A stretch of 34,560 bases of DNA from a virus. The DNA is taken from positions 1-34,560 of the IMG/VR virus record IMGVR_UViG_3300022871_001197; one strand, 5' to 3'. Positions within the stretch are counted from its first letter, which is position 1; each line of letters starts with the position of its first letter. This document shows, one piece after another, positions 168-29,943 of this stretch. A program made the translations under genes and the position numbers. Below the pieces are notes generated by a model. It was not told where the DNA came from and ran no database searches. It was given only the letters and a program-made list of their open reading frames with translations.

Positions 168-668
168 ATGAAAATATTTTTAGATCAAGACATACAAAAC
201 AAAGCAATAAAACTATCCAAACTCGTAATGGCTAAAGCAGAAAAACATAATTGGAACGACAAATTTGTTTTAAACCAAGTTCATGGCAAAGCAGAATTCG
301 ATGCAGATGTTATAGGATTTCTTGGAGAATTTGCTTTTGCAGAAATGTTTAATTTAGAAGGACCCATATTTTTTGAAACAAGTAATGATGTATATGATTT
401 CAAAATTGCAAATAAAAGAATAGATTTGAAAACAAGATTAACAGGAAAAAATATTTATATTAATGCTAATCAATTTGAAAGAAAGAAAAATATTATTGAC
501 TTATTTGTTTTTGGAAATATTGGAAACAATAAATTTACTTTAGATGGTTTTATTGAATACGATAAAGTCAAAGAAATAAATAATATAATTTGTTTCAATA
601 ATGGAAGTTCAGCATATCTTATTGAACAAAAAGATTTAACTGACATTGAATTATTGAGGAAGATTTAA
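168..668 (+). CDS. Putative PD-(D/E)XK nuclease-superfamily protein
   Basis: 166 residues with a good GGTGA ribosome site 5-9 nt before the ATG. The centre carries the usual order of PD-(D/E)XK core residues: Glu54 in an alpha helix (GFLGEFAFAEMF), Asp77 in VYDF, and Asp86-x-Lys88 in RIDLKTR, with strand-helix-strand spacing that fits the fold. Small phage proteins of this type are often nucleases of unknown target. It stands directly before the methyltransferase and resolvase genes, so a DNA-processing role is possible. The fold call rests on motif reading only; metal-dependent nuclease activity is inferred. The C-terminal half (90-166) has no recognised motif. Confidence 0.6.
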   Translation: MKIFLDQDIQNKAIKLSKLVMAKAEKHNWNDKFVLNQVHGKAEFDADVIGFLGEFAFAEMFNLEGPIFFETSNDVYDFKIANKRIDLKTRLTGKNIYINANQFERKKNIIDLFVFGNIGNNKFTLDGFIEYDKVKEINNIICFNNGSSAYLIEQKDLTDIELLRKI

Positions 669-705
669 TTAGTTTAAAAACATAAACAACATGGGGGAAA
701 TTATT

Positions 706-1431
706 ATGGAAGAAAAAATATGCAGACACAAAAATTTAGTTGAACTAACACACAGACACAAACAATGTTCTGATTGTGGAGTTTGGAAAGGAACAAGAGA
801 AGATGCACATCATTATTCAATGGAGTATTATACAAATAAAGTGTTTGGATTGTTTGATGCTTGTATTCCTAAAAGAACAATTAATAGTGAATATTACAAA
901 TTTACTCATTTTAAAAATCTTGAAATAGACACAACACAAATGAGAAAGATTTTAGAGATTGGTGGTGGAGTTTGTCAAACATCTTACTCTCTTGCTCTTG
1001 AAGGCAAAGATGTTATTGTTGTAGAATCAAGTCAATGGGCTACAAAATGGATGAAAGAATCTTATGGTGAAAGAAATGGTTTCAAAATAATTGATGCTAA
1101 CTTTGAAAATGTAGATAAATCTTTAATTGGAAAAGACTTTGATTTCATTTTTGCTAATCATGTATTTGAACATTTAGTTGATCCAATGACTGCAATAGAA
1201 TATTGTTATGATATTCTTGTTGATAATGGAAAATTCTTTTTGATTGTTCCTAATCAAGAAAGAGAAAAGAACATGCATCATACTCATGAATGGGCTTTTA
1301 GTATTGATGTTCTAAAAAAGTGGTTTGAACAGGTTGGATTTAAAGATATTAAAATTCAAGAGTTCCCGGGGAGTGTTGAGGAAGTTAAACAGCTTGGTGG
1401 AGCTCACATTAGGATTGTTGGGACTAAATAA
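706..1431 (+). CDS. Class I SAM-dependent methyltransferase with N-terminal Cys cluster
   Basis: About 241 residues. I chose the ATG at 706 because a GGGGG ribosome-site-like run (693-697) lies just before it; an in-frame ATG at 691 would put that run inside the gene. The N-terminus has Cys6, Cys21 and Cys24 (C-x14-C-x2-C, with His residues nearby), a probable zinc knuckle. The Rossmann core follows: motif I ILEIGGGVCQ near 82-91, acidic strand end VVVESSQW, then FDFIFANHVFEHLVDP, typical of the Methyltransf_11/23 group that often modifies sugars or small molecules. The gene at 2793 has the same architecture. With the glycosyltransferases and radical SAM enzyme downstream, glycan or nucleotide-sugar O-methylation is the likeliest role; the substrate is unknown. 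Confidence 0.85.
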   Translation: MEEKICRHKNLVELTHRHKQCSDCGVWKGTREDAHHYSMEYYTNKVFGLFDACIPKRTINSEYYKFTHFKNLEIDTTQMRKILEIGGGVCQTSYSLALEGKDVIVVESSQWATKWMKESYGERNGFKIIDANFENVDKSLIGKDFDFIFANHVFEHLVDPMTAIEYCYDILVDNGKFFLIVPNQEREKNMHHTHEWAFSIDVLKKWFEQVGFKDIKIQEFPGSVEEVKQLGGAHIRIVGTK

Positions 1432-1445
1432 TTTGGTGATTTGAA

Positions 1446-1778
1446 ATGACACATTATAGGAAAGGATATTCACTTGAAAGAAATGTAAAACTACATTTAG
1501 AATCACAAGGATATTATGTCATTAGAAGTGCAGGAAGTCATGGCATTGCAGACTTAATGGCTAAAAAACCAGATGAACTTTGCTACTTCATTCAACTAAA
1601 AAGTGGAACAAAAATAACTAAATATGAGAAAAAAAGAATTGAAGACTTTTTTAAACTCCACAAGTTTTGTAGTGTAATAATTATTACAAAAATAAAAAAA
1701 CAATTTATTATAGAAAACTTTTGTGGCAAGTGGAAACAAAATATTTATAAACACATTAAAGAGATTGTTTTAGTATGA
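1446..1778 (+). CDS. Archaeal Hjc-type Holliday junction resolvase-like protein
   Basis: 110 residues, close to the length of a minimal archaeal Hjc. The N-terminal signature is clear: RKGYSLERNVKLHLESQGYY, then VIRSAGSHGIADLMA, giving Glu11, the SAGSH loop and Asp36. Known Hjc enzymes next carry E-x-K as the second half of the metal site; here the strand reads YFIQLKSG, so the acidic residue is Gln50 while Lys52 is kept. The family resolves four-way DNA junctions, and in a virus would clear branched DNA before packaging. The Glu-to-Gln change may lower or remove cleavage. The last four bases overlap the next gene start (ATGA). Confidence 0.8.
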   Translation: MTHYRKGYSLERNVKLHLESQGYYVIRSAGSHGIADLMAKKPDELCYFIQLKSGTKITKYEKKRIEDFFKLHKFCSVIIITKIKKQFIIENFCGKWKQNIYKHIKEIVLV

Positions 1779-2068
1779 GTGATATTCCAAAAGAAGCAAA
1801 AGACAAATTATTAAATAAAATTAAAAATACTTTAAACTCAAAAAATAATAAAAAATTCTTATTACTTTTTATAGCACAAGAAAAAAAAGGAACATCAATT
1901 GGATTTCTTTCTGGATTTAATGATATGGAAACACTTGGACATATTGAAAAAGCAAAGTTATTTACTTATGAAAGAATTGCAACTTGTGAGCATGATAGAA
2001 CAAGTAATAAAAGATTAGTTGATGTTGAAGAAAAAGTAGTTGAAGGAAAATTATCTTATGTGAGTTGA
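1775..2068 (+). CDS. Small hypothetical protein
   Basis: 97 residues, beginning inside the stop of the resolvase gene (ATGA overlap), so probably translated by coupling. The N-terminus is lysine-rich and helical. A central part (FLLLFIAQEKKGTSIGFLSGF) looks like a beta-hairpin core rather than a membrane segment, and the C-terminus is charged. I do not recognise the family. Position suggests it is co-expressed with the resolvase. Confidence 0.7.
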   Translation: MSDIPKEAKDKLLNKIKNTLNSKNNKKFLLLFIAQEKKGTSIGFLSGFNDMETLGHIEKAKLFTYERIATCEHDRTSNKRLVDVEEKVVEGKLSYVS

Positions 2069-2070
2069 TT

Positions 2071-2784
2071 ATGGAAAAAATTGCTATACTGACACCATGT
2101 TACAATGGAAAGCGAGATGAGAAAACAGAAGAATGTATTTTAAAATGTAAAAGTTATTTCAAAAATTTTGAGTTTTATAGTTTCACAACAGAAGAAGTTT
2201 ATATTCATAGGGGAAGAACAACTTTGTTAAATGATTTAATTGAGAGAGATGCACTTGAACATTTCTCTTATGTTTTATGGTTAGACAGTGATGTTTATTT
2301 TGAACCAAAAGATTTATCAAAATTAATTGAATCTGTTTCTGGAAAAAATCTTGGTTGTGTTAGTGGAGTTTATTTTAATAGACATAGGAATCATCACCCA
2401 ATGTATTGTTATGGTGATGGATATTATGGTTTAGAATGGGATAAACTTTCAAATATCCCAAATAAAATATTTGAAGTTGATGGACTTGGATTTGGATTTC
2501 TATTAATGAAAATTGGGTTAATTCATAGATATGTAAAAGAATATCCTTATCAAAAATGGTTTGATTCTAGTAATTGGTATCCAACAAGATTAGAAGAAAA
2601 AGCAATATTTACTATTGGTGAAGATGTTGACTTTTGTAAAAAACTTAGAAAACTTGGTTACAAAATTTGGGTTGATGGAACAATAAAATTATCTCATAAA
2701 GGAATTGTTTATGATGATTATGTTAAATGGAAAAAAGAAAACTTTTGGCACCCACATTGTGCGTCAAAGGTATTAAAGTATTAG
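2071..2784 (+). CDS. GT-A fold glycosyltransferase
   Basis: 237 residues from ATG 2071; an in-frame TTG at 2065 overlapping the previous stop is the alternative. It starts IAILTPCYNG, the first Rossmann strand of GT2-like enzymes, has RGRTTLLNDL (a donor-binding helix), and the metal-binding D-x-D as Asp72-Ser-Asp74 in LWLDSDVYF. A later GEDVDFCKKL element fits the catalytic-base region of GT-A enzymes, followed by GYKIWVDGTIKLSHKG. No membrane segment is seen, so it should act in the cytoplasm. The gene at 5232 shares the same landmarks (D-x-D, GED-x-x-FCKKL, SH near the end), so the two are paralogues. Donor and acceptor are unknown. Confidence 0.85.
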   Translation: MEKIAILTPCYNGKRDEKTEECILKCKSYFKNFEFYSFTTEEVYIHRGRTTLLNDLIERDALEHFSYVLWLDSDVYFEPKDLSKLIESVSGKNLGCVSGVYFNRHRNHHPMYCYGDGYYGLEWDKLSNIPNKIFEVDGLGFGFLLMKIGLIHRYVKEYPYQKWFDSSNWYPTRLEEKAIFTIGEDVDFCKKLRKLGYKIWVDGTIKLSHKGIVYDDYVKWKKENFWHPHCASKVLKY

Positions 2785-2792
2785 GCGATGTT

Positions 2793-3506
2793 ATGAGTAT
2801 ATGCAAACATAAATGGGAAAGATTACAAGACACAATTTGTTGTGAGCATTACAAGTGTGAACTTTGTGATGCAATAAAGAAAACTTCTATTTGTGATTTT
2901 CATACAAAGATTTCGCATACTTATATTGGGAAAGAATATTTTGTTAGTTCAAAGATTGGTAATTTTAAAGATGATATTCCTTTGAATAAACAATATATTA
3001 ATGAACTTGAATTTGCTTTAAACGAATTTAATTTTAACAGGGATTCTAAATATCTTAGAACAGTTATTGAAATTGGTGCTGGAATTGGAAGATTAATTCC
3101 AATGTTTTTAAAAAATGGTTTTGATTATACTGGTCTTGAGTATAATGAATGGGCAGTAAGATATATGGAAAATGCTTATGATGTTAAAGTTATTAAAGAA
3201 GATTTTATGAAACTGAATTTAGATAAAAAATATAATTTGGTTGTTTGTATTCATACTCTTGAACATTTTAAAGATGCTGATGTTGCTTTTGAAAAACTTT
3301 GTAATCTTGTAACACCATATGGTTATTTGCTTATTGAAGTTCCACATAGAAAAGATTTGTATAATCCAGATCACTATTGGTTTTTTGATAAGGCTGTTCT
3401 TTATAATTGGGCTGACTTAAATGATTTTGAGGTTATTGGTTATTTACAAAAAAAGGTTATTGAGAGAGAAGATTATATTTATTGTTTAATGAAAAGGGGA
3501 AAGTAA
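2793..3506 (+). CDS. Class I SAM-dependent methyltransferase with N-terminal Cys cluster
   Basis: 237 residues from ATG 2793 (GGCGAT upstream); a longer frame runs back to 2727 but overlaps the glycosyltransferase without a ribosome site. Cys4, Cys16, Cys17, Cys22 and Cys25 make a likely zinc-binding N-terminal module. Motif I is VIEIGAGIGR near 91-100, followed by GLEYNEWAVRYM and LVVCIHTLEHFKDADVAF. The layout matches the 706 gene, although the sequences have diverged. A role in modifying a sugar or sugar-linked intermediate fits its place between a glycosyltransferase and a radical SAM enzyme; that role is inferred. Confidence 0.85.
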   Translation: MSICKHKWERLQDTICCEHYKCELCDAIKKTSICDFHTKISHTYIGKEYFVSSKIGNFKDDIPLNKQYINELEFALNEFNFNRDSKYLRTVIEIGAGIGRLIPMFLKNGFDYTGLEYNEWAVRYMENAYDVKVIKEDFMKLNLDKKYNLVVCIHTLEHFKDADVAFEKLCNLVTPYGYLLIEVPHRKDLYNPDHYWFFDKAVLYNWADLNDFEVIGYLQKKVIEREDYIYCLMKRGK

Positions 3507-3508
3507 TA

Positions 3509-4612
3509 ATGTATTTTATAGAAAAAAATAATAAAAGAGAAATAACAAAATGTTTTATTCTTTATGTTGATAAAGAATGTAGTCCTCAAGAAAAAGAAAA
3601 GGTATGTAATTTTAGTTGTGACTTTTGTTATTATCGTTTCTCTAATCAAAAATGGAAAACATTACAAGAAATGAAGAATGAAATTAATGAAATGATTTCT
3701 CGTGGTTCTAATCATATTCAAATTACTGGTGCTGAACCAACAATGCACAAAGACTTTTTTGAATTACTTGATTTTGTTAAATCTAAAAATGTTTTGTGTT
3801 CTGTTATTACAAATGGTTATTTGTTATCAGTTGAAAGTCTTGTTGAAAAACTTGTTGGCAAAGTTGATTATTTATTAATGTCTATTCATGGATATAAAAA
3901 GAAATGGAATAAAATTTCTCATGTGCCATTGTCTTGGGAAAAAACAGTTATGGCTTTGGGTAATTGTAGAAAGCATGGGATTGAAGTTCATTTTAATACA
4001 ACATTAATTAAACAAAATTATAAGGACTTAGATAAAATTCTTTTGTTAGCAAAAGAGTTTAATGTAAAGAGATGTAATTTTATTTGTTTTAATCCTTTTT
4101 GTAGTTTTAAAACTGCAGCTGGACAAGAACAAGTTGATAAGTTAATGGTTAGTTATGATGATATGATGCCTTATCTTGAAGATGCATTTGATTTGTGTAT
4201 GGCTAATAATATTGATTTTGCTATGAGGTATTTTCCTTTTTGTAAAGTTCCTGTTCATATGAGGAAATATGTATTTAATTATTCTAATTTACAATTTGAT
4301 TTGAATGAGTGGAATTATGCTTATTGGTTTCCTAAAGAATTTGGATCTAGTTTAAGTATAATGGATAAAGTTATTCATGCTCGTGGTCTTGAAGGTTCTG
4401 GTGAACAGAAATTGTTACATGCGTTTGGAAGGTTTTATCCACCATTTAGAATTAATTTTAAAGAAGATGATGAGTGCAAGTTTTGTAATGATTACTTGAT
4501 TTGTGATACTCCTCATGCTGAACAGAAACTTAAATTTACAAATCAAAAGTTTTGTAGAACTGGTTCGCCAGTTAAAAGAAATGCTAAATATTATGTCAAT
4601 GGGGGTAATTGA
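3509..4612 (+). CDS. Radical SAM enzyme with C-terminal Cys cluster
   Basis: 367 residues from ATG 3509, preceded by GGGGAAAG. The radical SAM 4Fe-4S motif C-x3-C-x2-C is CNFSCDFC (Cys33, 37, 40), followed by ITGAEPTMHKDFFEL, the GE/GA-P SAM-binding motif, and VITNGYLL. The C-terminus has Cys323, Cys326, Cys332 and Cys349 (CKFCNDYLIC then FC), like the auxiliary-cluster region of SPASM/twitch enzymes, though shorter. The family generates a 5'-deoxyadenosyl radical for methylation, epimerisation, peptide or sugar chemistry. Its neighbours suggest sugar or surface modification. The substrate is not visible in the sequence. Confidence 0.88.
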   Translation: MYFIEKNNKREITKCFILYVDKECSPQEKEKVCNFSCDFCYYRFSNQKWKTLQEMKNEINEMISRGSNHIQITGAEPTMHKDFFELLDFVKSKNVLCSVITNGYLLSVESLVEKLVGKVDYLLMSIHGYKKKWNKISHVPLSWEKTVMALGNCRKHGIEVHFNTTLIKQNYKDLDKILLLAKEFNVKRCNFICFNPFCSFKTAAGQEQVDKLMVSYDDMMPYLEDAFDLCMANNIDFAMRYFPFCKVPVHMRKYVFNYSNLQFDLNEWNYAYWFPKEFGSSLSIMDKVIHARGLEGSGEQKLLHAFGRFYPPFRINFKEDDECKFCNDYLICDTPHAEQKLKFTNQKFCRTGSPVKRNAKYYVNGGN

Positions 4613-4613
4613 T

Positions 4614-4808
4614 ATGTTTGAAGGAATAATAGGAATGTTTGGTTATATCAAACCAACTAATAGAGAAATACAATTAATAGATATTGTTGATAATGCTAGA
4701 ATTGAAGGACACGATATTTTTATTGATTTCTTGAAAACCACTAAAAGACAAAAAATATATGTTAAAGGTGGAAAAAAAATAATTTATAAAACTAACTTGG
4801 AGGACTAA
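4614..4808 (+). CDS. Small hypothetical protein
   Basis: 64 residues. The start at 4614 is supported by GGGGGTAATT directly upstream; the frame is open further back inside the radical SAM gene but without a ribosome site there. The protein has a hydrophobic glycine-containing N-terminus (FEGIIGMFGYI) and a basic C-terminal beta-rich part. No family recognised. Confidence 0.6.
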   Translation: MFEGIIGMFGYIKPTNREIQLIDIVDNARIEGHDIFIDFLKTTKRQKIYVKGGKKIIYKTNLED

Positions 4809-4810
4809 AA

Positions 4811-5050
4811 ATGAATGTATGGAGTGAAGTAAGAGATATGGCAATTGTAGTTTTAATATTACAATACTTAATTGGATTGTATTATACTACAATAATATTT
4901 GTTGTCTTGTTCATTGTTTTAATTGTTGGATATAAAGCAAATAAAATTAAAGAAGAAGAATCAAAGAAAAAAGTAATAAAAACAACAATGGAATTATTTA
5001 ACAAAATGGTTGAAAAAGATAATTCTACTAAAAAAGGAAAGGTGAAATAA
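4811..5050 (+). CDS. Small membrane protein with charged cytoplasmic tail
   Basis: 79 residues with GGAGG eight nt before the ATG. Residues about 9-44 are strongly hydrophobic (AIVVLILQYLIGLYY, TTIIFVVLFIVLIVGY), enough for two short or one long membrane segment; the rest is a lysine/glutamate-rich helix. It could anchor the modification enzymes encoded around it to the membrane, but this is speculation. Confidence 0.7.
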   Translation: MNVWSEVRDMAIVVLILQYLIGLYYTTIIFVVLFIVLIVGYKANKIKEEESKKKVIKTTMELFNKMVEKDNSTKKGKVK

Positions 5051-5052
5051 TT

Positions 5053-5229
5053 ATGGGGGATGTAACTGACATTGGGCCTATGATTCAATTGGCTAAATTG
5101 AGAATGAAAGATAAAAAAGAATATGATAAACTATTAAATGAAATAGTATTTGTTACAAGGGACATGATAAAAATATCTACTTCTCTTGTTAAAGAACAAA
5201 TGGAAAAAATGGAAAAAGAAGGTAAGTAA
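5053..5229 (+). CDS. Small helical hypothetical protein
   Basis: 58 residues, ending three nt before the next gene. GGTGA stands at the right distance before ATG 5053. Sequence begins MGDVTDIGPMIQLAKLRMKD and continues as a charged helix likely to form a coiled coil. The gene lies in a tight + strand row with gaps of two nt on both sides, which supports it as real. Function unknown. Confidence 0.6.
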   Translation: MGDVTDIGPMIQLAKLRMKDKKEYDKLLNEIVFVTRDMIKISTSLVKEQMEKMEKEGK

Positions 5230-5231
5230 AA

Positions 5232-5936
5232 ATGGTTGATGAAAGAAAGTCTGTTGCGATTTGTGTTTCCGCAAGTCATACTATTCCAGCAGCTTTCTTG
5301 AAACATTTCATGAATTTTTATTTATCTAATCAAGAGAAATATGATTTGTATTTTTTGTGTGAAGTAAATTATTTAATTGACTATGCAAGAAATACTATGG
5401 TTAAGAAACTTTTGGGTTGTGATAGGCAACCAGATTATTTTTTCTTTGTTGATGCTGATATGGTGTTTGCTCATAATACTTTAGATAGATTAATTGAGGA
5501 AGATAAAGATGTTATTACTGGTCTTTATTTTCAAAGGTTAAGACCACATTATCCTTTGGCTTGGAAATCTGATGGGAACAAATATTGTTGGCATACTGAT
5601 TTTAAAGAAAATGTTGTTGAGGAAATTGATGCTTGTGGAGCTGGAGCTTTGTTAGTTAAGTCTGATGTTTTTAAGAAAATTGGTTCTCTTTGGTTTTATG
5701 ATTTGATTGATGTTAATGGTTGTCCTGTTGGGGAAGATATTTATTTTTGTAAGAAGTTACAGGAGAATGGTTTTAGGATTTGGTTGCATGGTGGAACTAT
5801 TATTTCTCACATCGGGGATTCTTCAATAAATATTACTGATTTTGTTTTGTGTAAAAATAGTCCGGAGTATATTCCGAGGAAAGAAACTGGTTTGCATAAT
5901 GATTCTTTTGAAACAAAAGATATTTTCATGCAATAA
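5232..5936 (+). CDS. GT-A fold glycosyltransferase
   Basis: 234 residues. D-x-D is Asp74-Ala-Asp76 in FFFVDADMVF, preceded by NYLIDYARNTMVKKL, and followed by VITGLYFQR and the GEDIYFCKKL element, then IWLHGGTIISHIGD. These match the 2071 enzyme element by element. It is the last gene of the + strand block, followed by a convergent boundary with the virion operon. Such small non-processive enzymes in viruses usually act on virion glycoproteins, host surface glycans or modified DNA bases; which of these applies here is open. Confidence 0.85.
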   Translation: MVDERKSVAICVSASHTIPAAFLKHFMNFYLSNQEKYDLYFLCEVNYLIDYARNTMVKKLLGCDRQPDYFFFVDADMVFAHNTLDRLIEEDKDVITGLYFQRLRPHYPLAWKSDGNKYCWHTDFKENVVEEIDACGAGALLVKSDVFKKIGSLWFYDLIDVNGCPVGEDIYFCKKLQENGFRIWLHGGTIISHIGDSSINITDFVLCKNSPEYIPRKETGLHNDSFETKDIFMQ

Positions 5937-19308: not shown

Positions 19309-19890
19309 TTATATCTCGTCATACTGGTAAGTAAATGTTTCGTTTGCTAAATCTCCTGGACTAGCTGTTGTTCCTACTGCCATTTGTAAAACAATATAAT
19401 TTGTTGTTTCACCAATTGCATCAATTACACTTCCTGCTTCCGAAGTTGTTATTGATTTAGGACTTCCACTAGTAAATGAAAATGCATCTGTTACTGCTGT
19501 TATATCTGTGTGGTCTGTCATTACATCCCCAGTTGTTCCGATTGTTCCTGTTGCTACATCATATCCTGTGTCTGCTGTACTGCTTTTTACTGGTAATTCA
19601 TCACCAATATTTGTAACAATACCTGTTCCAAAAGCTCCACCATCAGTGTAAAACTTTACATTGTCAACTTGTGTATCTGGTGCTGTTGCACAATACAGAT
19701 AAATTTGTTTCCAAAAACTATAATTTGTTCCTGCTGCTGGAATTGGTATAGGACTGTTTGTATCAATAGTAGCATCGTCTGCTGTTTTGAACCTTACATT
19801 TGGTGGTCCAAGACCATCTGTGTTCTGTTCTGTTCCTGGAGTATTATCTGTTCCTCCAAAATCATAATTTACATTGAATACTGCTGCCAT
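19309..19890 (-). CDS. Accessory virion protein, paralogue of the 20974 gene
   Basis: 193 residues, GGGTGAT ribosome site. All-beta and Gly/Thr/Ala-rich. It shares with the 170-residue protein the start MAA, the element GTNYSFWKQIYL, DNVKFY near the middle, NYIVLQMAV, then TASPGD and the terminal TFTYQYDEI. The pair look like decoration or fibre proteins exposed on the virion. No enzyme motif. Confidence 0.65.
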   Translation of the reverse strand: MAAVFNVNYDFGGTDNTPGTEQNTDGLGPPNVRFKTADDATIDTNSPIPIPAAGTNYSFWKQIYLYCATAPDTQVDNVKFYTDGGAFGTGIVTNIGDELPVKSSTADTGYDVATGTIGTTGDVMTDHTDITAVTDAFSFTSGSPKSITTSEAGSVIDAIGETTNYIVLQMAVGTTASPGDLANETFTYQYDEI

Positions 19891-20643: not shown

Positions 20644-20987
20644 CAGTTCTCACAGTTTCTATTATTTATATAATTTATGTATTGTTTTGAAATAAGGTCT
20701 AATTGTTTTTCAAGTTGTAATATTCTATTTTTACAAGTAATTAATTCTGTTCTACATTTATTTTCATGTTCGTTTTTATGACACAATTTTGTCAATAAAA
20801 AACATGGTGTCGCACATGTTTTTTTTAACTTTGAAACAATTTTGTTTAAAAAAAAGTGGGTTTCATGATAATATAAATATTGAATGTTGTTTTGTTTACA
20901 AAAATGCTTTGATAAGGATAGACCAAATTGTTTTTGTTTTAATTTTACACCCACATAAATCACTTTAAACCCATTATATTTCATCAT
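20643..20987 (-). CDS. Hypothetical Cys-rich protein
   Basis: 114 residues beginning within the end of the 170-residue gene (14-nt overlap). No clear ribosome site; the tandem ATGATG follows a T-rich tract. It has seven cysteines, several in pairs (TCATPC, LCHKNEHENKC), and a C-terminal coiled coil (ITCKNRILQLEKQLDLISKQ). Tight overlaps on both sides suggest it is translated by coupling. Function unknown. Confidence 0.5.
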   Translation of the reverse strand: MMKYNGFKVIYVGVKLKQKQFGLSLSKHFCKQNNIQYLYYHETHFFLNKIVSKLKKTCATPCFLLTKLCHKNEHENKCRTELITCKNRILQLEKQLDLISKQYINYINNRNCEN

Positions 20988-21486
20988 AAAAAAATGTTAT
21001 TGATTGAGAACCAATGTCCCCGGGAGTTGTAACTGTACTTGGAACTTCAAGTTGAATTACTAAGAAATCTGTTTTCTCACCACTCGTATCAATTGGATTT
21101 GTTGGAGTAATATTGATTGCCTCGCCCTCAGAATCCCAACTTGTCAAGATTGTTGTAGCAATATTTGAAACAGTATTAATTGGAGTTACCCCAGTATCAG
21201 TTTCTCCTGCTGTCAAACCAATATTGCTATCACTTAATGATCCAGAACTATGCCATGCCTTAATATTGTCTATTAAAGTAAATGTTCCAGTGAATTCAAG
21301 TCTTAACCATTTTTCATAAGAATAATTTGTGCCTGAATCAGGCACACTAATAGTATTTGTTTGATAACTTGTTTCAGTAGAATCGTATGCATCTGTGCTT
21401 AATAAATTAAAATTAGTTGCATCGCCAGAATTTTCTGTTCCTGCATCTGTGCTAGTACAAACTTTCAAGTTACATATCGCAGCCAT
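20974..21486 (-). CDS. Accessory virion protein, paralogue of the 19309 gene
   Basis: 170 residues. Shares with the 193-residue protein MAA at the start, GTNYSYEKWLRLEF, DNIKAWH, DFLVIQLEV, TTPGDIGSQ and the terminal TFFYDEI. Thr/Ser/Asp-rich beta protein without cysteine pairs, probably exposed on the particle. The two copies bracket the membrane-protein cassette. Confidence 0.65.
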   Translation of the reverse strand: MAAICNLKVCTSTDAGTENSGDATNFNLLSTDAYDSTETSYQTNTISVPDSGTNYSYEKWLRLEFTGTFTLIDNIKAWHSSGSLSDSNIGLTAGETDTGVTPINTVSNIATTILTSWDSEGEAINITPTNPIDTSGEKTDFLVIQLEVPSTVTTPGDIGSQSITFFYDEI

Positions 21487-22051: not shown

Positions 22052-23140
22052 TTATGCATCAGTAACATCGATGAACACGATTGCATCTGGGTGTACTACT
22101 CCAATACCATATGCCAGTTCAAGGATTATGTCCTTTGACAACTGTCTTTTATAGTCATCAACACTTATGTTTGGCGAAATTGCATCTGCATAAGCATATG
22201 CTGCTTTTGGTTTGCACATAATACATCTGTGTCCTGTTGCACCTGGAGCTGAACCACCATCTAATGCTGTTCCACCAGAAGTGAACTTTACAACATTGTC
22301 TGTACTAATGATTTTGATTCCAAGGTATCTTCCTATTTCTCCTTCCATTACTATTTCATTATCACCGTATGTTGCGGCATTAATGAATTGGTCGTCTTTT
22401 AGGAAAACATTTTCTTGTTCAGGGGCTATGAATAAAACGAATGGATCTTCCTTTACGTTTTTCCACGGATTCTTTTCAGCACTTGAAATTGCTTCTACTG
22501 CTGGTGATGCTGGTGTCCAATACTTGCATGTAGATGTTACAAGTTTTGTTTTAGCATCTGCAACAATTTCTGTTGTTATTTTATCTAATGCTGCTAGTTC
22601 AGATTCTGCTTTTGCATCTCCACCATAAATTGTTTGAGCTCCTCTTGCAGTTGAAGTTGAAGCTGTTGCTGTTGCTACTGCATAGGCAACATCTTGATCT
22701 ACCATATCTCCTGCATGATAAATTAAGTCATCTTTTGCTGCTTTCAACAAGTCAATTGCATTTGTTTGAATTGCCCAATTTGAAATTGTTACTCCTGCAT
22801 TTTTTGGAGTTGGTGTGATTTGTAACCCGTCTAAGTTATTAAGCTTAGTGAAAGTTACATCTGCTCCTTCAGATGCGCTATCTGCCCAGTCACCTGTTGT
22901 TAATCCAGTTCTTACTGACTTTAAGTAACTTGTTCTAAAAGGAATAATAACATCTTTGTTTCCCTTAGCAACTTTTGTTTGATATGCGAACTGTTTGAAA
23001 AAGTGTGCCTTTTGAGCTGCATCACTAATTTCTTTTAACCAATTTGTTGGTTCTAAATTATATGCTGTTCTGGAAGTACCTGCAACATCAGTTGTAGTTG
23101 TATCTCCAGAGGTTAATTCTCTTACCGTTTGAAGTGACAT
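22052..23140 (-). CDS. Major capsid protein, HK97 fold
   Basis: 362 residues with GGAGG upstream. N-terminal arm MSLQTVRELTSGDTTTTDVA, then the E-loop region (KDVIIPFRTSYLKSVRTGLT), the long spine helix region (AIQTNAIDLLKAAKDDLIYH) and A-domain elements (DPFVLFIAPEQENVFLKDDQ, IVMEGEIGRYLGIKIISTDN, a typical beta-hinge). Ends VVHPDAIVFIDVTDA. Size and position after the protease-scaffold gene are standard. Higher GC than nearby genes fits strong expression. Confidence 0.88.
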   Translation of the reverse strand: MSLQTVRELTSGDTTTTDVAGTSRTAYNLEPTNWLKEISDAAQKAHFFKQFAYQTKVAKGNKDVIIPFRTSYLKSVRTGLTTGDWADSASEGADVTFTKLNNLDGLQITPTPKNAGVTISNWAIQTNAIDLLKAAKDDLIYHAGDMVDQDVAYAVATATASTSTARGAQTIYGGDAKAESELAALDKITTEIVADAKTKLVTSTCKYWTPASPAVEAISSAEKNPWKNVKEDPFVLFIAPEQENVFLKDDQFINAATYGDNEIVMEGEIGRYLGIKIISTDNVVKFTSGGTALDGGSAPGATGHRCIMCKPKAAYAYADAISPNISVDDYKRQLSKDIILELAYGIGVVHPDAIVFIDVTDA

Positions 23141-23151
23141 GTCAATACCTC

Positions 23152-24402
23152 CTACATCCTCTTCAAGAAACCCATCATTTGTTCATCAGCACTTTGGTTC
23201 TGTTTCATTTCTGCAACATTTCCTGTTGATGTAACTCTTTCTGGAGTTTCTAATTTTATTACTAGCTCTTTCATTTCTTGAGCCATTGTTTTTACAACTG
23301 CTTTCAGTTCTTCCATTTCAGAAGCTTCTGTTTCTTTAGCTTTCATTTCAGCATCAGGAACTTTATCTTCTTTCTTGTCTTCAACTGGAGCATCTACTTT
23401 TGGTTCTTCAGGTACTTTCTTTTTCTTAAAAGCATTGAATACTTCCTCTAATGATGCACTTGAATTTTCTTTTACAAATTCGTTGTGGAAATTCGTAAAT
23501 TCCTCTAATTCGGATAACTTAGCATCTTCACTAGATTTAGTGGGTTGTGCTTCGTTACCTTCATCAGTTTCTTTTTCTTCTTCTTCATTACCCATAGATT
23601 TCACCTCACTATTTTTATTTTTATCTTTAGGTTCAATAACTGTAATATTAAATTTTTTTGCAGCAGTAAATATCTTATTTTTTGCTGTTGCTTTTTCTTC
23701 CGGAGTTAATCCTTCAACTTGATTAAAACGAGCAAGAGCATTTCTAACATGGGATGCATCAAATATTGGTAGCTTTGAAGCACTTGGTGGATCTCTTGGA
23801 ACTGCATAAAATTCTGATACACTCATTCCAAGTTCTTTTCTTTTTGTTTCCATATCTGTTACTTGCGCATTCCCATATTCATCATCTAAAAAGAATACTG
23901 GTCTAGTTCCATCTGAATTATTTATAAAAGCTTTTTTTATTGCTGGATTAATTACTACTGAAAAATTGTTAAATGTAAAGTTTTTCATTGATTTATCTTT
24001 CATCTCACCAGTAACTTTTGGAGATATTCCTGTTTTAGGTTTTCCATATTTTAATTTAACTGCTGATATTGGATCATAAACAAACATATCACCATATACA
24101 AATCCTGTTGGTTCATCTAATCTCCTATTTTTTATTTCCCCAATCCATTCACCAAACTTTTGGTCTTGGTGATCTAAAATTAAATTTGAGTTATATCTAT
24201 CTTCCCAGTTTGTTTGATTGTATGCTTTGATTATTTCTTCTTTGCTATAATAACAATCGTTCCAAACTCCGGGAGCCATTAAGACTTTATCCTTTTCTAT
24301 ATAAGGAATATCAGCTTTGCTATCAACCACATTTAATAGTTCTTGGAATAGTGGCGAATTTGCAATATTTTCTTCTGTGAGCGTGTAAATCTCTTTGTTC
24401 AT
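23152..24402 (-). CDS. Prohead protease fused to scaffold domain
   Basis: 416 residues. Part 1 (1-165) resembles HK97-like prohead proteases: His78 in NLILDHQDQKFGEWIG and Ser127 in TGISPKVTGE are the probable catalytic pair. Part 2 (about 200-253) is the short module FDASHVRNALARFNQ ... AKNKIFTAAKKFNI often attached to such proteases. Part 3 (254-416) is a charged Glu/Lys-rich coiled coil that should act as internal scaffold and be destroyed on maturation. The ATG has no ribosome site; a TTTAAATA box 22 nt upstream suggests a leaderless transcript. Confidence 0.82.
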   Translation of the reverse strand: MNKEIYTLTEENIANSPLFQELLNVVDSKADIPYIEKDKVLMAPGVWNDCYYSKEEIIKAYNQTNWEDRYNSNLILDHQDQKFGEWIGEIKNRRLDEPTGFVYGDMFVYDPISAVKLKYGKPKTGISPKVTGEMKDKSMKNFTFNNFSVVINPAIKKAFINNSDGTRPVFFLDDEYGNAQVTDMETKRKELGMSVSEFYAVPRDPPSASKLPIFDASHVRNALARFNQVEGLTPEEKATAKNKIFTAAKKFNITVIEPKDKNKNSEVKSMGNEEEEKETDEGNEAQPTKSSEDAKLSELEEFTNFHNEFVKENSSASLEEVFNAFKKKKVPEEPKVDAPVEDKKEDKVPDAEMKAKETEASEMEELKAVVKTMAQEMKELVIKLETPERVTSTGNVAEMKQNQSADEQMMGFLKRM

Positions 24403-24432: not shown

Positions 24433-24568
24433 TGTATGTCATCTTTTGTTCTTTTTGTAACTGAAAAATAGAAAATGAGGATATTTTTAACTCTTTTGAT
24501 ATTTTACAAATTGATTTACCTTTCTCAGATGAGTTAATTATTTTTATTTGATTTTCAACGCTCATCAT
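24428..24568 (-). CDS. Small helix-turn-helix protein (Psq/CENP-B type)
   Basis: 46 residues (45 from the second ATG), starting inside the end of the Dam fusion gene. Sequence element QIKIINSSEKGKSICKISKE followed by LKISSFSIFQLQK matches the pipsqueak-type HTH: helix, G-K-S turn, helix, I-S-S-F-S recognition helix. GTGAT precedes the start. It could control the promoter that lies over its own stop codon. Confidence 0.6.
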   Translation of the reverse strand: MMSVENQIKIINSSEKGKSICKISKELKISSFSIFQLQKEQKMTYI

Positions 24569-26210
24569 TTTTTATCACTTTGAATTCAGTTCCATTATAA
24601 TCTCTAATTATACTTCCAATTGAATTAAGTGATTTAGAAAATAACTTAGTTGCCTTTTCAAAATCTTTATTTTCAACAACTACAAATGGATTTAATCTAA
24701 ATTTTGTTGAAAAGAAAACTGTTTTAAGATACTTTTTTCTTTCAGATGAATTCATATTTGATATATCTTCATTCAAATAAAAAATATCAGTTGTATATAA
24801 TATTTGTTTGAAATCTTTTTGTAACATTATTCTTTCATCTTTTTCAGTAAATAAATATCCTTCTAAAACAAAATCTCTTGGATCAGAACAAATATCTCTT
24901 TTTATTTTTGAATTAAAAAAAACAGATTCTCCTTTTGAATTAACAATATATAATACATTATTGCTTTTGTTTATGATTACTCTTTCACCATCTGGTAATT
25001 TTTCAATAATATTTTTTTTAAATTCTTTATCAATTATAGCTGGTTTTAAAGCATAATTAGATTTATTGACTTTCTTTTTCAATATCAAATCATATTCATC
25101 TAAAGAACCCACTATTGCATCTAAGCTTTCAACTGTGCTTTCAGATTCTTTTCCAGTATAAATCATTTCTGAAAGCTTTTTTATTTCAGAATTCACAATT
25201 ATTTCATTATCAGCTTTTCTTAATTGGTCAATATCTTCGCATTCAATTTTATAATTTGTAACAAGCAATTCGTATTTTGCTTTCATTCCTGTCCTAAATG
25301 TTCTTGGAACAGGAGTTGTCATTACATACCAACCATTACCTTCAAACAATTTTCTAATCCATTCTAAATTATTTAATGACACCATGAACTTTGCTTCACA
25401 ATTAGTTAAGTATCCAACAAAGTCTTTTACTTCTTGTTCTCCCCAGAGTTTTGTTTTCTTTGATTCTGGTCCAGGCCATTCATCAGGATATGGTGGGTCT
25501 AAATAAAAGAAAGCATCTTTGTTATCATATTTTTTTAAAACTTCTAAATAATCTGAATTGTAAATGTGAGTGTCTTTTAATCGTTCTTTTAATGCTGGAA
25601 TTCTTTCCATAAAATGAGTGTTAATATTTTTGTAGCCAAATGAAGATCTGTTTCCACCATAACTTGCTTTTATTAAATACATATATCTATAAAATTTTTG
25701 TATGTCTTCTTTACCATCAAAATTTTGTTGTTTTAAATTATAAAAATATTCTTTATCAGCTTCCCATTTCATTGACTTTAATTTTTGTATATCTTCTTCT
25801 GAACAATCTCTAACGAACTTATAAGCTCCTGCAATATCTGGATCTAAATCATTTACAACTTCTACTTGAGATTTTTCTTTATTAAAATAACAAGCTAATC
25901 CACCTGCAAATGGTTCAACATATGTATTATGTTGTGGAAACCATGAAGCAAATCTTTTTGCAACTCTATATTTTCCCCCTGGGCTTGGGAATACTTGTTG
26001 CATTAGTTCTTCTATTACTTCTTCGTTATCTGCTTCTGTCCATTCCATATCTTGTAAAATAAATTCTGCATTATTTTTTTCTTTAAATGCTTTTATCTTT
26101 TTAAAAATTCCTGTTATTAGTTCATAATTATCTTCTTGTCCTTGGGCTTTTGCAATTTCTTTTGCCTTAGTCCAAATTTGTTCATCTTCTTTTGTCATTT
26201 TGCCTGGCAT
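24555..26210 (-). CDS. D12-class DNA adenine methylase fused to a degenerate DNA-ligase-like domain
   Basis: 551 residues from ATG 26210; a TTG at 26219 overlapping the portal stop is the alternative. N-terminus (1-45): KMTKEDEQIWTKAKEIAKAQ, a small helical module. Dam-like core (about 75-325): GGKYRVAKRFASWFPQH (SAM and DNA contact), PFAGG, DLDPDIAGAYKFVRD and the catalytic DPPY at 238-241. C-terminal region (about 400-510) follows the order of ATP-dependent ligase/nucleotidyltransferase motifs: LPDGERVIINKSNNVLYIVN, DFVLEGYLF, DIFYLNEDISN, SSERKKYL. The motif I lysine is displaced by one residue (K-L-P-D-G rather than K-x-D-G) and motif III has Tyr in place of Glu, so catalysis is unlikely. 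It lies between portal and protease genes, an odd place for a methylase. Confidence 0.78.
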   Translation of the reverse strand: MPGKMTKEDEQIWTKAKEIAKAQGQEDNYELITGIFKKIKAFKEKNNAEFILQDMEWTEADNEEVIEELMQQVFPSPGGKYRVAKRFASWFPQHNTYVEPFAGGLACYFNKEKSQVEVVNDLDPDIAGAYKFVRDCSEEDIQKLKSMKWEADKEYFYNLKQQNFDGKEDIQKFYRYMYLIKASYGGNRSSFGYKNINTHFMERIPALKERLKDTHIYNSDYLEVLKKYDNKDAFFYLDPPYPDEWPGPESKKTKLWGEQEVKDFVGYLTNCEAKFMVSLNNLEWIRKLFEGNGWYVMTTPVPRTFRTGMKAKYELLVTNYKIECEDIDQLRKADNEIIVNSEIKKLSEMIYTGKESESTVESLDAIVGSLDEYDLILKKKVNKSNYALKPAIIDKEFKKNIIEKLPDGERVIINKSNNVLYIVNSKGESVFFNSKIKRDICSDPRDFVLEGYLFTEKDERIMLQKDFKQILYTTDIFYLNEDISNMNSSERKKYLKTVFFSTKFRLNPFVVVENKDFEKATKLFSKSLNSIGSIIRDYNGTEFKVIKNDER

Positions 26211-26215
26211 AATAA

Positions 26216-27469
26216 TCAATCCGGTAAATTCTCCATTTTTCTAATGTAAGCATCAAGTGAATCTGTTGGTTTCAATAATCCTGCTTTTGCATACTCAACA
26301 ATTCTTCTAGCCTTGCTATCAAGTTCTTCTAAAGAAACTTCTCCCCATACAAGTCTTGGAACATCAGGCCAACCATATTGTTCTGCTAGAACTCTTAGTT
26401 GTTTTGCTTCAATTGTTCTTGTTGTTCTTTTTATTATATCTTTTAAAGAAAGTTTCATAATGTATTCTTGTCTTGCAAGAGTACTTCTATTTGTGGCTTC
26501 TCCACTTCCACTTGCAAATGCTTGTGGAACTCCTAATCCTGTTATTTGTTCCTTCTCAAAATAATCTAAGTGTTGTGAAAGTTTTTCTGGATTTCTTGAT
26601 TCAATTAAATCTAGTTTTACATAATGTGGAAATGCAAAACTTGATCTTGAATCAACATTTGTTATTTCATTTAAAACTTCAATTACTTGTTGTCCTGTTG
26701 GTTCATGTAATGAATCTCCAATACTAGCAGTAATAATTGGATATCCTAATCGTCTTGCTGCATTTGCATATCCTTGTTCAATATTTAGTTTTCGATTTCC
26801 TGCATTATAAATTGGTTCTACTAAACCAAGTCCATCTAATCCATCTCCAATCGTATATAATTTAAAATGTGTTATTCTTGATGGTGGTAAAAATAATTTT
26901 CCTGAAATATCTATTCCTTCTGGAACTTCAAATTTTTGTTCAATATTTATTTGTAAAGGAAGTGTTTGAGCATATCCAATTGGATTTGTGTTTGCATCTA
27001 AAACAGCTTTGCCTCCATTATCTCTTGCATAATCCATTGTTATTGGATTGATAACATCTAAATCAACGATTTTTGTTTTTGCTTTATTATAAATATTTTC
27101 TTGCCAAGCATTACCAATTACTAATTCGTGTTTGAATGTTTCTGCTAACAATAAATCTTTATCTGTTTCTGAACCATAACTTCCAATTTTATCATAAAAT
27201 TCTGTTACACCATTTACTGATTCTTCACTTCCTTCAAAGTGATAACCTGCTGCCATAATTATTTGGACATACTTGTTTATTGAATTAAAAACAATTGGAT
27301 CACTTAGATAGGATTGCATTAATTCTTCTTTTGGAATTCTTACAATTTCACTTTCAACTTTTTTAGATTTTTGGTCACCGCTAATTGTTTTTGCTGGGTC
27401 TTTATTTTCTCTTGTTTGATTTGACGAAAAATTACTTTTCCCAAATAGTACTTGCGATATGGTTTGCAT
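26216..27469 (-). CDS. Portal protein
   Basis: 417 residues. HK97-type portal features: SDPIVFNSINKYVQIIMAAG near 75-95, LLLAETFKHELVIGNAWQE, LDVINPITMDYARDNGGKAV, LPPSRITHFKLYTIGDGLDG, GLGLVEPIYN, then GLGVPQAFASGSGEATNRST at the crown side and a helical C-terminus. It forms the 12-subunit packaging and exit channel at one capsid vertex. Order terminase-portal is normal. Confidence 0.88.
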   Translation of the reverse strand: MQTISQVLFGKSNFSSNQTRENKDPAKTISGDQKSKKVESEIVRIPKEELMQSYLSDPIVFNSINKYVQIIMAAGYHFEGSEESVNGVTEFYDKIGSYGSETDKDLLLAETFKHELVIGNAWQENIYNKAKTKIVDLDVINPITMDYARDNGGKAVLDANTNPIGYAQTLPLQINIEQKFEVPEGIDISGKLFLPPSRITHFKLYTIGDGLDGLGLVEPIYNAGNRKLNIEQGYANAARRLGYPIITASIGDSLHEPTGQQVIEVLNEITNVDSRSSFAFPHYVKLDLIESRNPEKLSQHLDYFEKEQITGLGVPQAFASGSGEATNRSTLARQEYIMKLSLKDIIKRTTRTIEAKQLRVLAEQYGWPDVPRLVWGEVSLEELDSKARRIVEYAKAGLLKPTDSLDAYIRKMENLPD

Positions 27470-27764: not shown

Positions 27765-29342
27765 CTATAAACCTGGTACTTTTACCACTTTATTAGGAAT
27801 AATCTCATGTTTTATTATTTTTTCTTCATCTTTTCTTTTATAAAAATTATCTTGTCCTATTTTTCTTTCTGCTGAAAAAATAAGTTTTTGGTTTGATTTT
27901 ATCATTGAGTTAATTGTTTTTAGTGCCAAAGCAAGTGACATTACACAATCATCATGCTTTGTTGTTGATACAATATTTTGGGCTCCAAGTTTGGTTTGTC
28001 CAATTTGCATTCCTCTAAGTTCTCTTAATAATTCATCAACAACTTTCCTTGTTGATGGGTCTTTGTATGGGATTACAAGCCTGTCACCATCAATTATTTT
28101 TGCTAAGTTCAATAACATTGATTGTCTATTTGTGGAACCAAAGTCTTGTTCATCAATATTTAATCCTAAAGCTCTTAAGTCAGAACCAACAAGAACTCCA
28201 CCAGTTGATTTATCGATTACTAATCTTGTTGCACCAAGAGTATTATAGATTTGAACAACTTCGTTTATATCAACAGATTTTCTTCTAATTATTTTATTTA
28301 TAATTATTGGGTTTTGTATTGTTCTTTCCGAAGTTATTTTCCCAAGGCGTTGTATTATTGTGTGTGGTTCTTCTGACAAAGTTACTGCAATTAAAACTGT
28401 GAAGTCTGCGTTTGCAGATTTTGAGAAAGCAACATCCATTCCAATTAAAGTTATTCCAATTTTGGTTTCAAAAGAAAAATCAAGTTCATGGTCTACTGCT
28501 TGTGCAAGTTTGTCTTTGTCATAAACAGAACCTCCTGCTGCAACTGGATCACACATGTATTCTCTTGCGAATAACATTGGTGACATCATTGACTGTATTT
28601 TTTTTAATTCTTCTAGTGAATATCTTTCAGGCCAGAGTGGTGCTATCCAATTTCCAAGTGAATCTGTTTTTATACAGGCATAATGTATGTGTTTCCAGTC
28701 CCCAACTGTCGTTGCATTCTTTTCTATTTTATCAAATAAGTCTCCTTCAAATGCTGGAGTGCCGACAATAAAGTGTTTGCATCTATTTGTTTGTCCTGCA
28801 GGGAAAAACACACTCCAAAAGATTTCTTCTTTATCATCATTAGTAACACTGTTGTCTTCGATTCTAAGAATATCATCGTAGATGATGTATTGTGGTTGGA
28901 TTCCTCTTGCCGAATCATTAAATGGTTTTATGTATAAGTGGTTTCCATTAGAGGTTTCTATCTCAAATTTGTTCCAAGAGAATTCTTGGTTTTCTGGTAC
29001 GAGATGTTTTAGTAATGGGTTTGTTACAATCATTATTTTTATTTCATTCAAAACTTTTTTGGACTGTTGTATGCTGGAAGCTGTTAAACAGATTTCAACA
29101 CCCCTTTCTTTCCATAAAAGCCATGTTGCATATCCCTTGGATATCATTGTGGTTTTTGCGTGTCCTCTTGGAACTTCGATTAACACATATCTGTTCCTCA
29201 TTGCTGTGTCAACCATCTCTTTGTGGAAGCCACTTGGCTTGTAACCTAAAACATTTCCAATAAAAAAAGATGGGTCTGAACAATTAGATAAGAATTCGAT
29301 GTTATTCACTTTTTTTCCTAGATCAATATTTTCGTTAACCAA
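27765..29342 (-). CDS. Terminase large subunit
   Basis: 525 residues starting at TTG 29342, preceded by AAGGTG at 7 nt spacing; the frame stays open to 29402 but that part would lie deep in the small subunit gene. ATPase: Walker A VPRGHAKTT (57-65), Walker B YIIYDDI (Asp156-Asp157). Nuclease: Asp303 in GMDVAFSKSANAD, Asp377 in RLVIDKSTGG, and Asp464/465 in TKHDDCVMSLALAL, the three acidic positions of the RNase H-like domain. It drives DNA into the procapsid and cuts it. Both halves appear intact. Confidence 0.9.
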   Translation of the reverse strand: MVNENIDLGKKVNNIEFLSNCSDPSFFIGNVLGYKPSGFHKEMVDTAMRNRYVLIEVPRGHAKTTMISKGYATWLLWKERGVEICLTASSIQQSKKVLNEIKIMIVTNPLLKHLVPENQEFSWNKFEIETSNGNHLYIKPFNDSARGIQPQYIIYDDILRIEDNSVTNDDKEEIFWSVFFPAGQTNRCKHFIVGTPAFEGDLFDKIEKNATTVGDWKHIHYACIKTDSLGNWIAPLWPERYSLEELKKIQSMMSPMLFAREYMCDPVAAGGSVYDKDKLAQAVDHELDFSFETKIGITLIGMDVAFSKSANADFTVLIAVTLSEEPHTIIQRLGKITSERTIQNPIIINKIIRRKSVDINEVVQIYNTLGATRLVIDKSTGGVLVGSDLRALGLNIDEQDFGSTNRQSMLLNLAKIIDGDRLVIPYKDPSTRKVVDELLRELRGMQIGQTKLGAQNIVSTTKHDDCVMSLALALKTINSMIKSNQKLIFSAERKIGQDNFYKRKDEEKIIKHEIIPNKVVKVPGL

Positions 29343-29943
29343 TGTCAAACACCTTGGCTCTACTGAATTCTTTTGAGAACTTCCATTTCTTGAACAAATC
29401 AATCATTTCTCCAGTAGGTTCTTCAAAAACAATTTTGCCATCACTGTTCATTGTTGCCTTGCTAGTTTCAAGCCAACTAATTTTGACCTTTTCCATCTGT
29501 TCCATTAAGTCCGAAGTTGTAACAATATTGTTCTGGATATTCATCATTGTATTGTGAACTGATGATTGTAGTTGTCCTTGCTTTTTTAGTGCCAATTCTA
29601 CTTGGGCCCTAAGTTCTTTTATAACTTCGAGTTGTGTATTGATTGCGCCTTGCCCCTTTGCTGTTTCCAAAAGCTCTTTTGTGTAAGCCATGATGTCATT
29701 GAATTCTATTTTCATGCGCTCAGTAGATTCGAGAGCATAATCTGCTAGGTATTCTGCCCTGTCGGATTCGATTATTGTTTCCACAACCTTTCTTTTGAAA
29801 TTCGTGATTGAGTTCATGTCCTTGGCTATGCCCATCTTGGCTAATTCCCTTTGAGTTTCTGCTATCCCCTTGCCCTTGGAGAAGATTAGGTCGAACATTT
29901 CTTTTTCTCCAGGCCTTTCTATTTGATATTTCTCAACATTCAT
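29335..29943 (-). CDS. Terminase small subunit-like protein
   Basis: 202 residues. N-terminal DNA-binding-like helices (KEMFDLIFSKGKGIAETQRE, LAKMGIAKDMNSITNFKRKV) are followed by a long coiled coil (YTKELLETAKGQGAINTQLE, VIKELRAQVELALKKQGQLQ) and a C-terminal tail that may contact the large subunit. It directly precedes the large subunit with 8 nt overlap when the TTG start is used. The call combines helical pattern and position. Codons are noticeably less AT-rich than in the gene behind it. Confidence 0.75.
   Translation of the reverse strand: MNVEKYQIERPGEKEMFDLIFSKGKGIAETQRELAKMGIAKDMNSITNFKRKVVETIIESDRAEYLADYALESTERMKIEFNDIMAYTKELLETAKGQGAINTQLEVIKELRAQVELALKKQGQLQSSVHNTMMNIQNNIVTTSDLMEQMEKVKISWLETSKATMNSDGKIVFEEPTGEMIDLFKKWKFSKEFSRAKVFDIG

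Follow-up and report, generated by a model that had tools for sequence, protein, structure and literature searches.

Phage methyltransferases of the Dam/D12 type (group alpha; PF02086, TIGR00571) have motif I, the ND motif and DPPY in common with the viral fusion protein described here, at about 30% identity over about 250 aa. They can also adjoin portal or terminase genes, as in vB_BpuM-ZY1, where the methylase gene lies beside portal. However, no ligase-like C-terminus was seen in them: of the 517 phage records matched, none covers 80% of the fusion protein, and among the matches listed none runs beyond its residue 332. The C-terminal tail alone gave no significant match against the phage records. 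The nucleotidyltransferase (NTase) domain of archaeal Lig1 (PF01068), in turn, carries motifs I-V colinear with this tail over 136-173 columns. Compared to Lig1, the tail lacks the catalytic Lys, the motif III Glu, the motif IIIa Phe and the motif IV Glu and Lys and shows two surface deletions, while the fusion protein as a whole lacks both the N-terminal DNA-binding domain and the OB domain. CcrM combines, like the fusion protein, a well-conserved methyltransferase with a poorly conserved C-terminal domain (PMC6787082). Its methylase domain is about 46% conserved and its C-terminal DNA-binding domain only about 14%, yet the latter is required for activity (PMC6787082). By analogy, CcrM is probably the closest functional parallel, although its C-terminal domain is SAND-like whereas that of the fusion protein is ligase-derived. 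In polyvalent phage proteins and DarB of P1, an adenine methylase is likewise one part of a multidomain protein encoded by portal-terminase viruses (PMC5512222), but their SWI2/SNF2 ATPase or other hallmark domains were absent from the fusion protein in a Pfam scan. In the open-access literature we found no paper on a chemistry-free DNA ligase domain fused to a DNA methylase.

The fusion gene is encoded on a virus record of 34,560 bases, which was analyzed at full length and is referred to as the window. It lies in an operon that reads, in the order of transcription, terS-like gene, terL, small protein, portal, fusion gene, protease by position and major capsid protein:

27765..29402, minus strand: terminase large subunit (phrog_38, E 4.6e-43)
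26216..27469, minus strand: portal protein (phrog_9232, E 2e-15)
24555..26210, minus strand: methyltransferase/pseudo-ligase fusion gene, 551 aa from the ATG at 26210
23152..24402, minus strand: protease by position, 416 aa, with a DUF6582 insertion (PF20223, E 9e-9)
22052..23140, minus strand: major capsid protein (phrog_1357, E 1.2e-17)

The span 24555-26210 of the first-pass annotation is exact, its end at 26210 being the ATG of a minus-strand gene. The open reading frame extends to 26219 if an upstream TTG start is used, giving a protein of 554 aa whose gene shares 4 bases with the portal gene; all residue numbers given here refer to this longer version. The gene had been placed between portal and protease. 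While the portal assignment holds, its other neighbor is a protease by position only, followed by the major capsid gene, and no peptidase family was recognized in it besides DUF6582. This DUF6582 module occupies residues 173-272 and is cleanly missing from the orthologue of this neighbor in a second virus (L002). In the head/tail region, two neighboring minus-strand proteins (19309-19890 and 20974-21486) resemble diverged copies of each other, with GTNYS and similar stretches common to both and the identical ending YDEI. On the plus strand, opposite to the virion genes, a cluster at 168-5936 comprises two methyltransferases, two glycosyltransferase-like genes, a radical SAM enzyme and an archaeal Hjc resolvase, and the GC skew flips at the strand change. 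The tblastn matches of the portal protein in phage records come nearly all from haloarchaeal viruses; an Altiarchaeum virus and a single Moorella phage make up the remainder. Since an archaeal Hjc resolvase is present and the portal matches are mostly archaeal viruses, the virus is archaeal. In the haloarchaeal virus HRTV-22, the slot between portal and protease is occupied by a small hypothetical gene only.

Within the fusion protein the following parts can be distinguished:

26070..26198, minus strand: N-terminal module, residues 8-50 (W..AKEIAKAQGQEDNY..ITGIFKKI), match to a Motura phage protein
25242..25994, minus strand: D12/Dam-family N6-adenine methyltransferase domain, residues 76-326 (PF02086, E 2.1e-24)
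25488..25499, minus strand: catalytic DPPY, residues 241-244 (sequence motif)
25095..25241, minus strand: acidic, fast-evolving linker, residues 327-375 (47% identity to L002)
24558..25094, minus strand: degenerate ligase NTase domain, residues 376-554, about 179 residues (PF01068, hhalign)

The methylase domain is complete and of the D12 type with DPPY, as the first-pass annotation had it. PF02086 matches residues 80-299 with 87.1 bits against a gathering score of 22, and motif I (EPFAGG at 102), NDLD at 123 and DPPY at 241 are all intact, EPFAGG and DPPY being identical in L002. Solved Dam and DpnM-type enzymes of the PDB match this domain with E values down to 4e-12. TIGR00571 delivered E 1.2e-26, but with 93.9 bits it stays below its cut-off of 114.85; thus the methylase appears to belong to the D12 family and not to the strict Dam subfamily.

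The tail had been described as following the motif order of ligase adenylation domains, and this was borne out. PF01068 (DNA_ligase_A_M) matches the tail alone with E 1e-4 and, independently, the L002 tail with E 5e-3, both below the gathering score. When a profile of the two tails was aligned by hhalign with an archaeal ligase NTase alignment, motifs I-V were colinear over 136 columns (Prob 92.8, P 3.9e-7, score 48.9), and each tail by itself still reached 47.3 and 38.5. In contrast, scores did not exceed 22.9 in 200 column shuffles, 18.2 for ten other pieces of the same virus used as decoys, and 20.9 for single RNA-ligase-like and short-ligase sequences. Searching the two-tail profile over about 1,350 archaeal genomes, which were reached through archaeal 16S loci, yielded six matches; the E value is 0.003 for one of them and 0.001 or lower for the rest. 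Five of the six are genuine ATP-dependent DNA ligases; the sixth (L126) is a PIN-like protein and was dismissed as a chance match. A terminase search of the genome contigs gave no matches, and a phrog_56 match of the fusion protein reaching residue 515 was rejected, as the tail alone does not match phrog_56.

One might object that the tail is an unrelated domain that resembles ligases by chance. A profile search of the PDB with the tail found no ligase, and AlphaFold2 gave pLDDT values of 37 and 40 for the full protein and the tail, from two-row alignments too shallow to model even the known Dam fold. Foldseek on the low-confidence tail model (pLDDT 40) returned unrelated matches at E 0.05 or worse and no ligases. 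However, the profile-profile P value, the far lower shuffles and decoys, the independent signal in both orthologues and the colinear motif order make such a coincidence extremely improbable. Since the hhalign score is far above shuffles and decoys and each tail alone matches, the resemblance between tail and ligases is best read as homology.

The ligase motifs are, however, degenerate at the following positions, assigned by alignment:

24981..25001, minus strand: motif I equivalent, KLPDGER 407-413, catalytic Lys replaced by Leu408
24855..24866, minus strand: motif III equivalent, LEGY 452-455, Glu replaced by Tyr455
24774..24794, minus strand: motif IIIa equivalent, TTDIFYL 476-482, adenine-stacking Phe replaced by Thr477
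24600..24620, minus strand: motif IV equivalent, IGSIIRD 534-540, Glu replaced by Ile534 and Lys by Arg539
24570..24584, minus strand: motif V equivalent, FKVIK 546-550, first Lys replaced by Val548, second Lys550 kept

The first-pass annotation had called the tail a dead nucleotidyltransferase with a displaced motif I lysine and a tyrosine for the motif III glutamate. Both substitutions are correct: Leu408 occupies the catalytic position, with Lys407 immediately upstream of it, and EGE/DGE reads E453-G454-Y455. The Asp/Ile core of motif IIIa is kept. Between motifs III and IIIa about 20 residues are missing, and a second gap of about 10 residues separates motif IV from motif V. Neither an OB domain nor motif VI was found, the protein ending at the motif V equivalent. 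In active ligases the adenine stacks on the motif IIIa Phe, and contacts to the adenylate come from the Arg of motif I and the Lys of motif V (PMC4220977). In the L002 tail the catalytic Lys of motif I is Leu as well, motif III has Phe, motif IIIa Thr and motif IV Ser and Gln, and its motif equivalents KLPKGEH, IEAF and SGCLIQ show further losses. Because the key residues of motifs I, III, IIIa and IV are replaced in both viruses and the OB domain is missing, the tail presumably cannot ligate. Taken together with the homology (P 3.9e-7), this gives good support to the view that a complete methylase is fused to a dead NTase derived from a ligase. Separately, a Methanosarcinales genome (G007) encodes a 433-aa chromosomal ligase paralogue (L156) with degenerate motifs, KYPG for KYDG, VDAN for DGE and KG for EG, which appears to be a second, independent dead archaeal ligase.

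The orthologue (L002:4708-6354) is 68% identical to the fusion protein, 48% in the tail, and has the same fusion, the same catalytic losses and the same gene order. In our scans of viral contigs it was the sole true relative of the gene; a solo bacterial-phage Dam (L004) and a weak capsid-protein match (L003) were discarded. In itself the methylase is an ordinary viral one; what is unusual is the domain fused to it, a combination seen in two viruses to date. Between the two viruses dS is about 1.2-1.4 and both frames are open, with neither stop nor frameshift. As synonymous sites are near saturation, the pN/pS ratios between the window virus and L002 are rough: 0.16 for the methylase, 0.62 for the linker (pI 4.2) and 0.51 (0.40-0.67) for the tail. 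Within the tail, the half from motif I to III is barely constrained (0.67; 0.46-0.96), while the half from motif IIIa to V reaches 0.37. The runs TDIFYLNED, NPFVVV and LFSKSLNS are invariant in both tails. The tail is therefore under relaxed but real purifying selection, concentrated in the half without the lysine motif.

These data bear on the possibility that an ancestral active methylase-ligase fusion, or a read-through into a ligase, has decayed to a folded tail or spacer without a task. Such a fading remnant would fit the loss of all catalytic motifs in both viruses and the nearly unconstrained first half. However, no stop or frameshift has accumulated at a dS of about 1.4, and the second half is constrained and keeps its invariant runs, so we consider this scenario unlikely.

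That the tail binds DNA is a plausible inference. As summarized in PMC6144786, a Lys-to-Leu mutant of T4 ligase retains binding to nicked DNA, and isolated domains of T7 ligase bind duplex DNA, which makes DNA binding by a ligase remnant credible. The tails are basic, with isoelectric points of 9.4 and 8.5, although the L002 tail is only mildly so (net +2). Since the half from motif I to III is barely constrained, the DNA-contacting surfaces of that half may be lost too. One might further speculate that the tail still binds a nucleotide or a modified end, such as an adenylated end or a nick, and couples methylation to repair or terminase cleavage. The retained NTase scaffold with its motif IIIa Asp/Ile core would be in line with this, as would the nick binding of the Lys-to-Leu ligase summarized in PMC6144786. 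However, both viruses carry substitutions at AMP-contacting residues, and L002 (KLPKGEH) does not preserve Asp410 and Arg413 of motif I, which renders such a role highly improbable. The related proposal that the pseudo-ligase recognizes nicks or ends and directs the methylase to replication nicks or packaging ends appears clearly improbable as well. If it were true, this module would couple methylation to terminase cutting or head filling, and a repurposed dead ligase would serve as targeting domain for a viral epigenetic enzyme.

The position of the gene had also been taken to imply a role in the virion or in packaging. This does not follow: solo Dam genes lie directly after portal in Bacillus phage vB_BpuM-ZY1 and beside terminase in others. 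Because such genes adjoin portal in ordinary phages, the position suggests late expression at most, and a tie of the fusion protein to packaging or the virion is unsupported. A packaged protein, injected like DarB of P1, with the ligase domain docking to capsid or portal or guarding entering DNA ends, could still be envisioned. In its favor, both viruses have the gene between those for portal and capsid, P1 DarB resides in the head and contains an adenine methylase (PMC5512222), and the fusion protein has an extra N-terminal module. Residues 8-50 match a protein of Achromobacter phage Motura (L157:1501-1593) with 61% identity over 31 aa (E 1e-3; i-Evalue of the profile match 5e-11). The Motura protein is Nudix-like, annotated as A/G-specific adenine glycosylase, and encoded a few genes away from a topoisomerase, outside any head operon. 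This stretch thus seems to be a small mobile phage module unnamed by Pfam. Its recurrence there, the solo Dam genes beside portal or terminase in ordinary phages, and a search that found no known virion-targeting domain make a packaged protein unlikely.

With regard to the target sequence, no 4-bp palindrome is more depleted than GATC in either virus, with 35 sites observed against 82 expected in the window and 7 against 27 in L002. However, the distantly related archaeal virus HRTV-22, which lacks the fusion gene in the stretch examined, shows a stronger depletion. Consequently, GATC depletion is uninformative on the specificity of the enzyme and we rejected it as evidence, while GATC avoidance suggests GATC-directed restriction in the host range. 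ACGT occurs twice in the window, against 18 expected sites.

We favor the reading of a late, self-protecting methylase with a non-catalytic, ligase-derived tail that grips duplex DNA, and give it as a whole a probability of roughly 0.5. According to this reading, a tailed archaeal virus would make a Dam-family N6-adenine methyltransferase late, together with its head genes, and methylate its own DNA, most likely as a means of evading host restriction; we infer activity, specificity, timing and purpose of the enzyme. Its C-terminal domain would descend from the NTase domain of an archaeal-type ATP-dependent DNA ligase, with ligation chemistry lost entirely before the lineages of the two known viruses diverged. 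It may have been kept as an accessory domain that grips duplex DNA, perhaps favoring nicks or ends, and thereby raises the affinity or processivity of the methylase, like the C-terminal DNA-binding domain of CcrM. If the tail does bind DNA, it would illustrate viral reuse of a ligase scaffold as a handle that holds DNA, and the fusion protein would provide a natural test of how much nick recognition by ligases persists once the lysine and the OB domain are gone.
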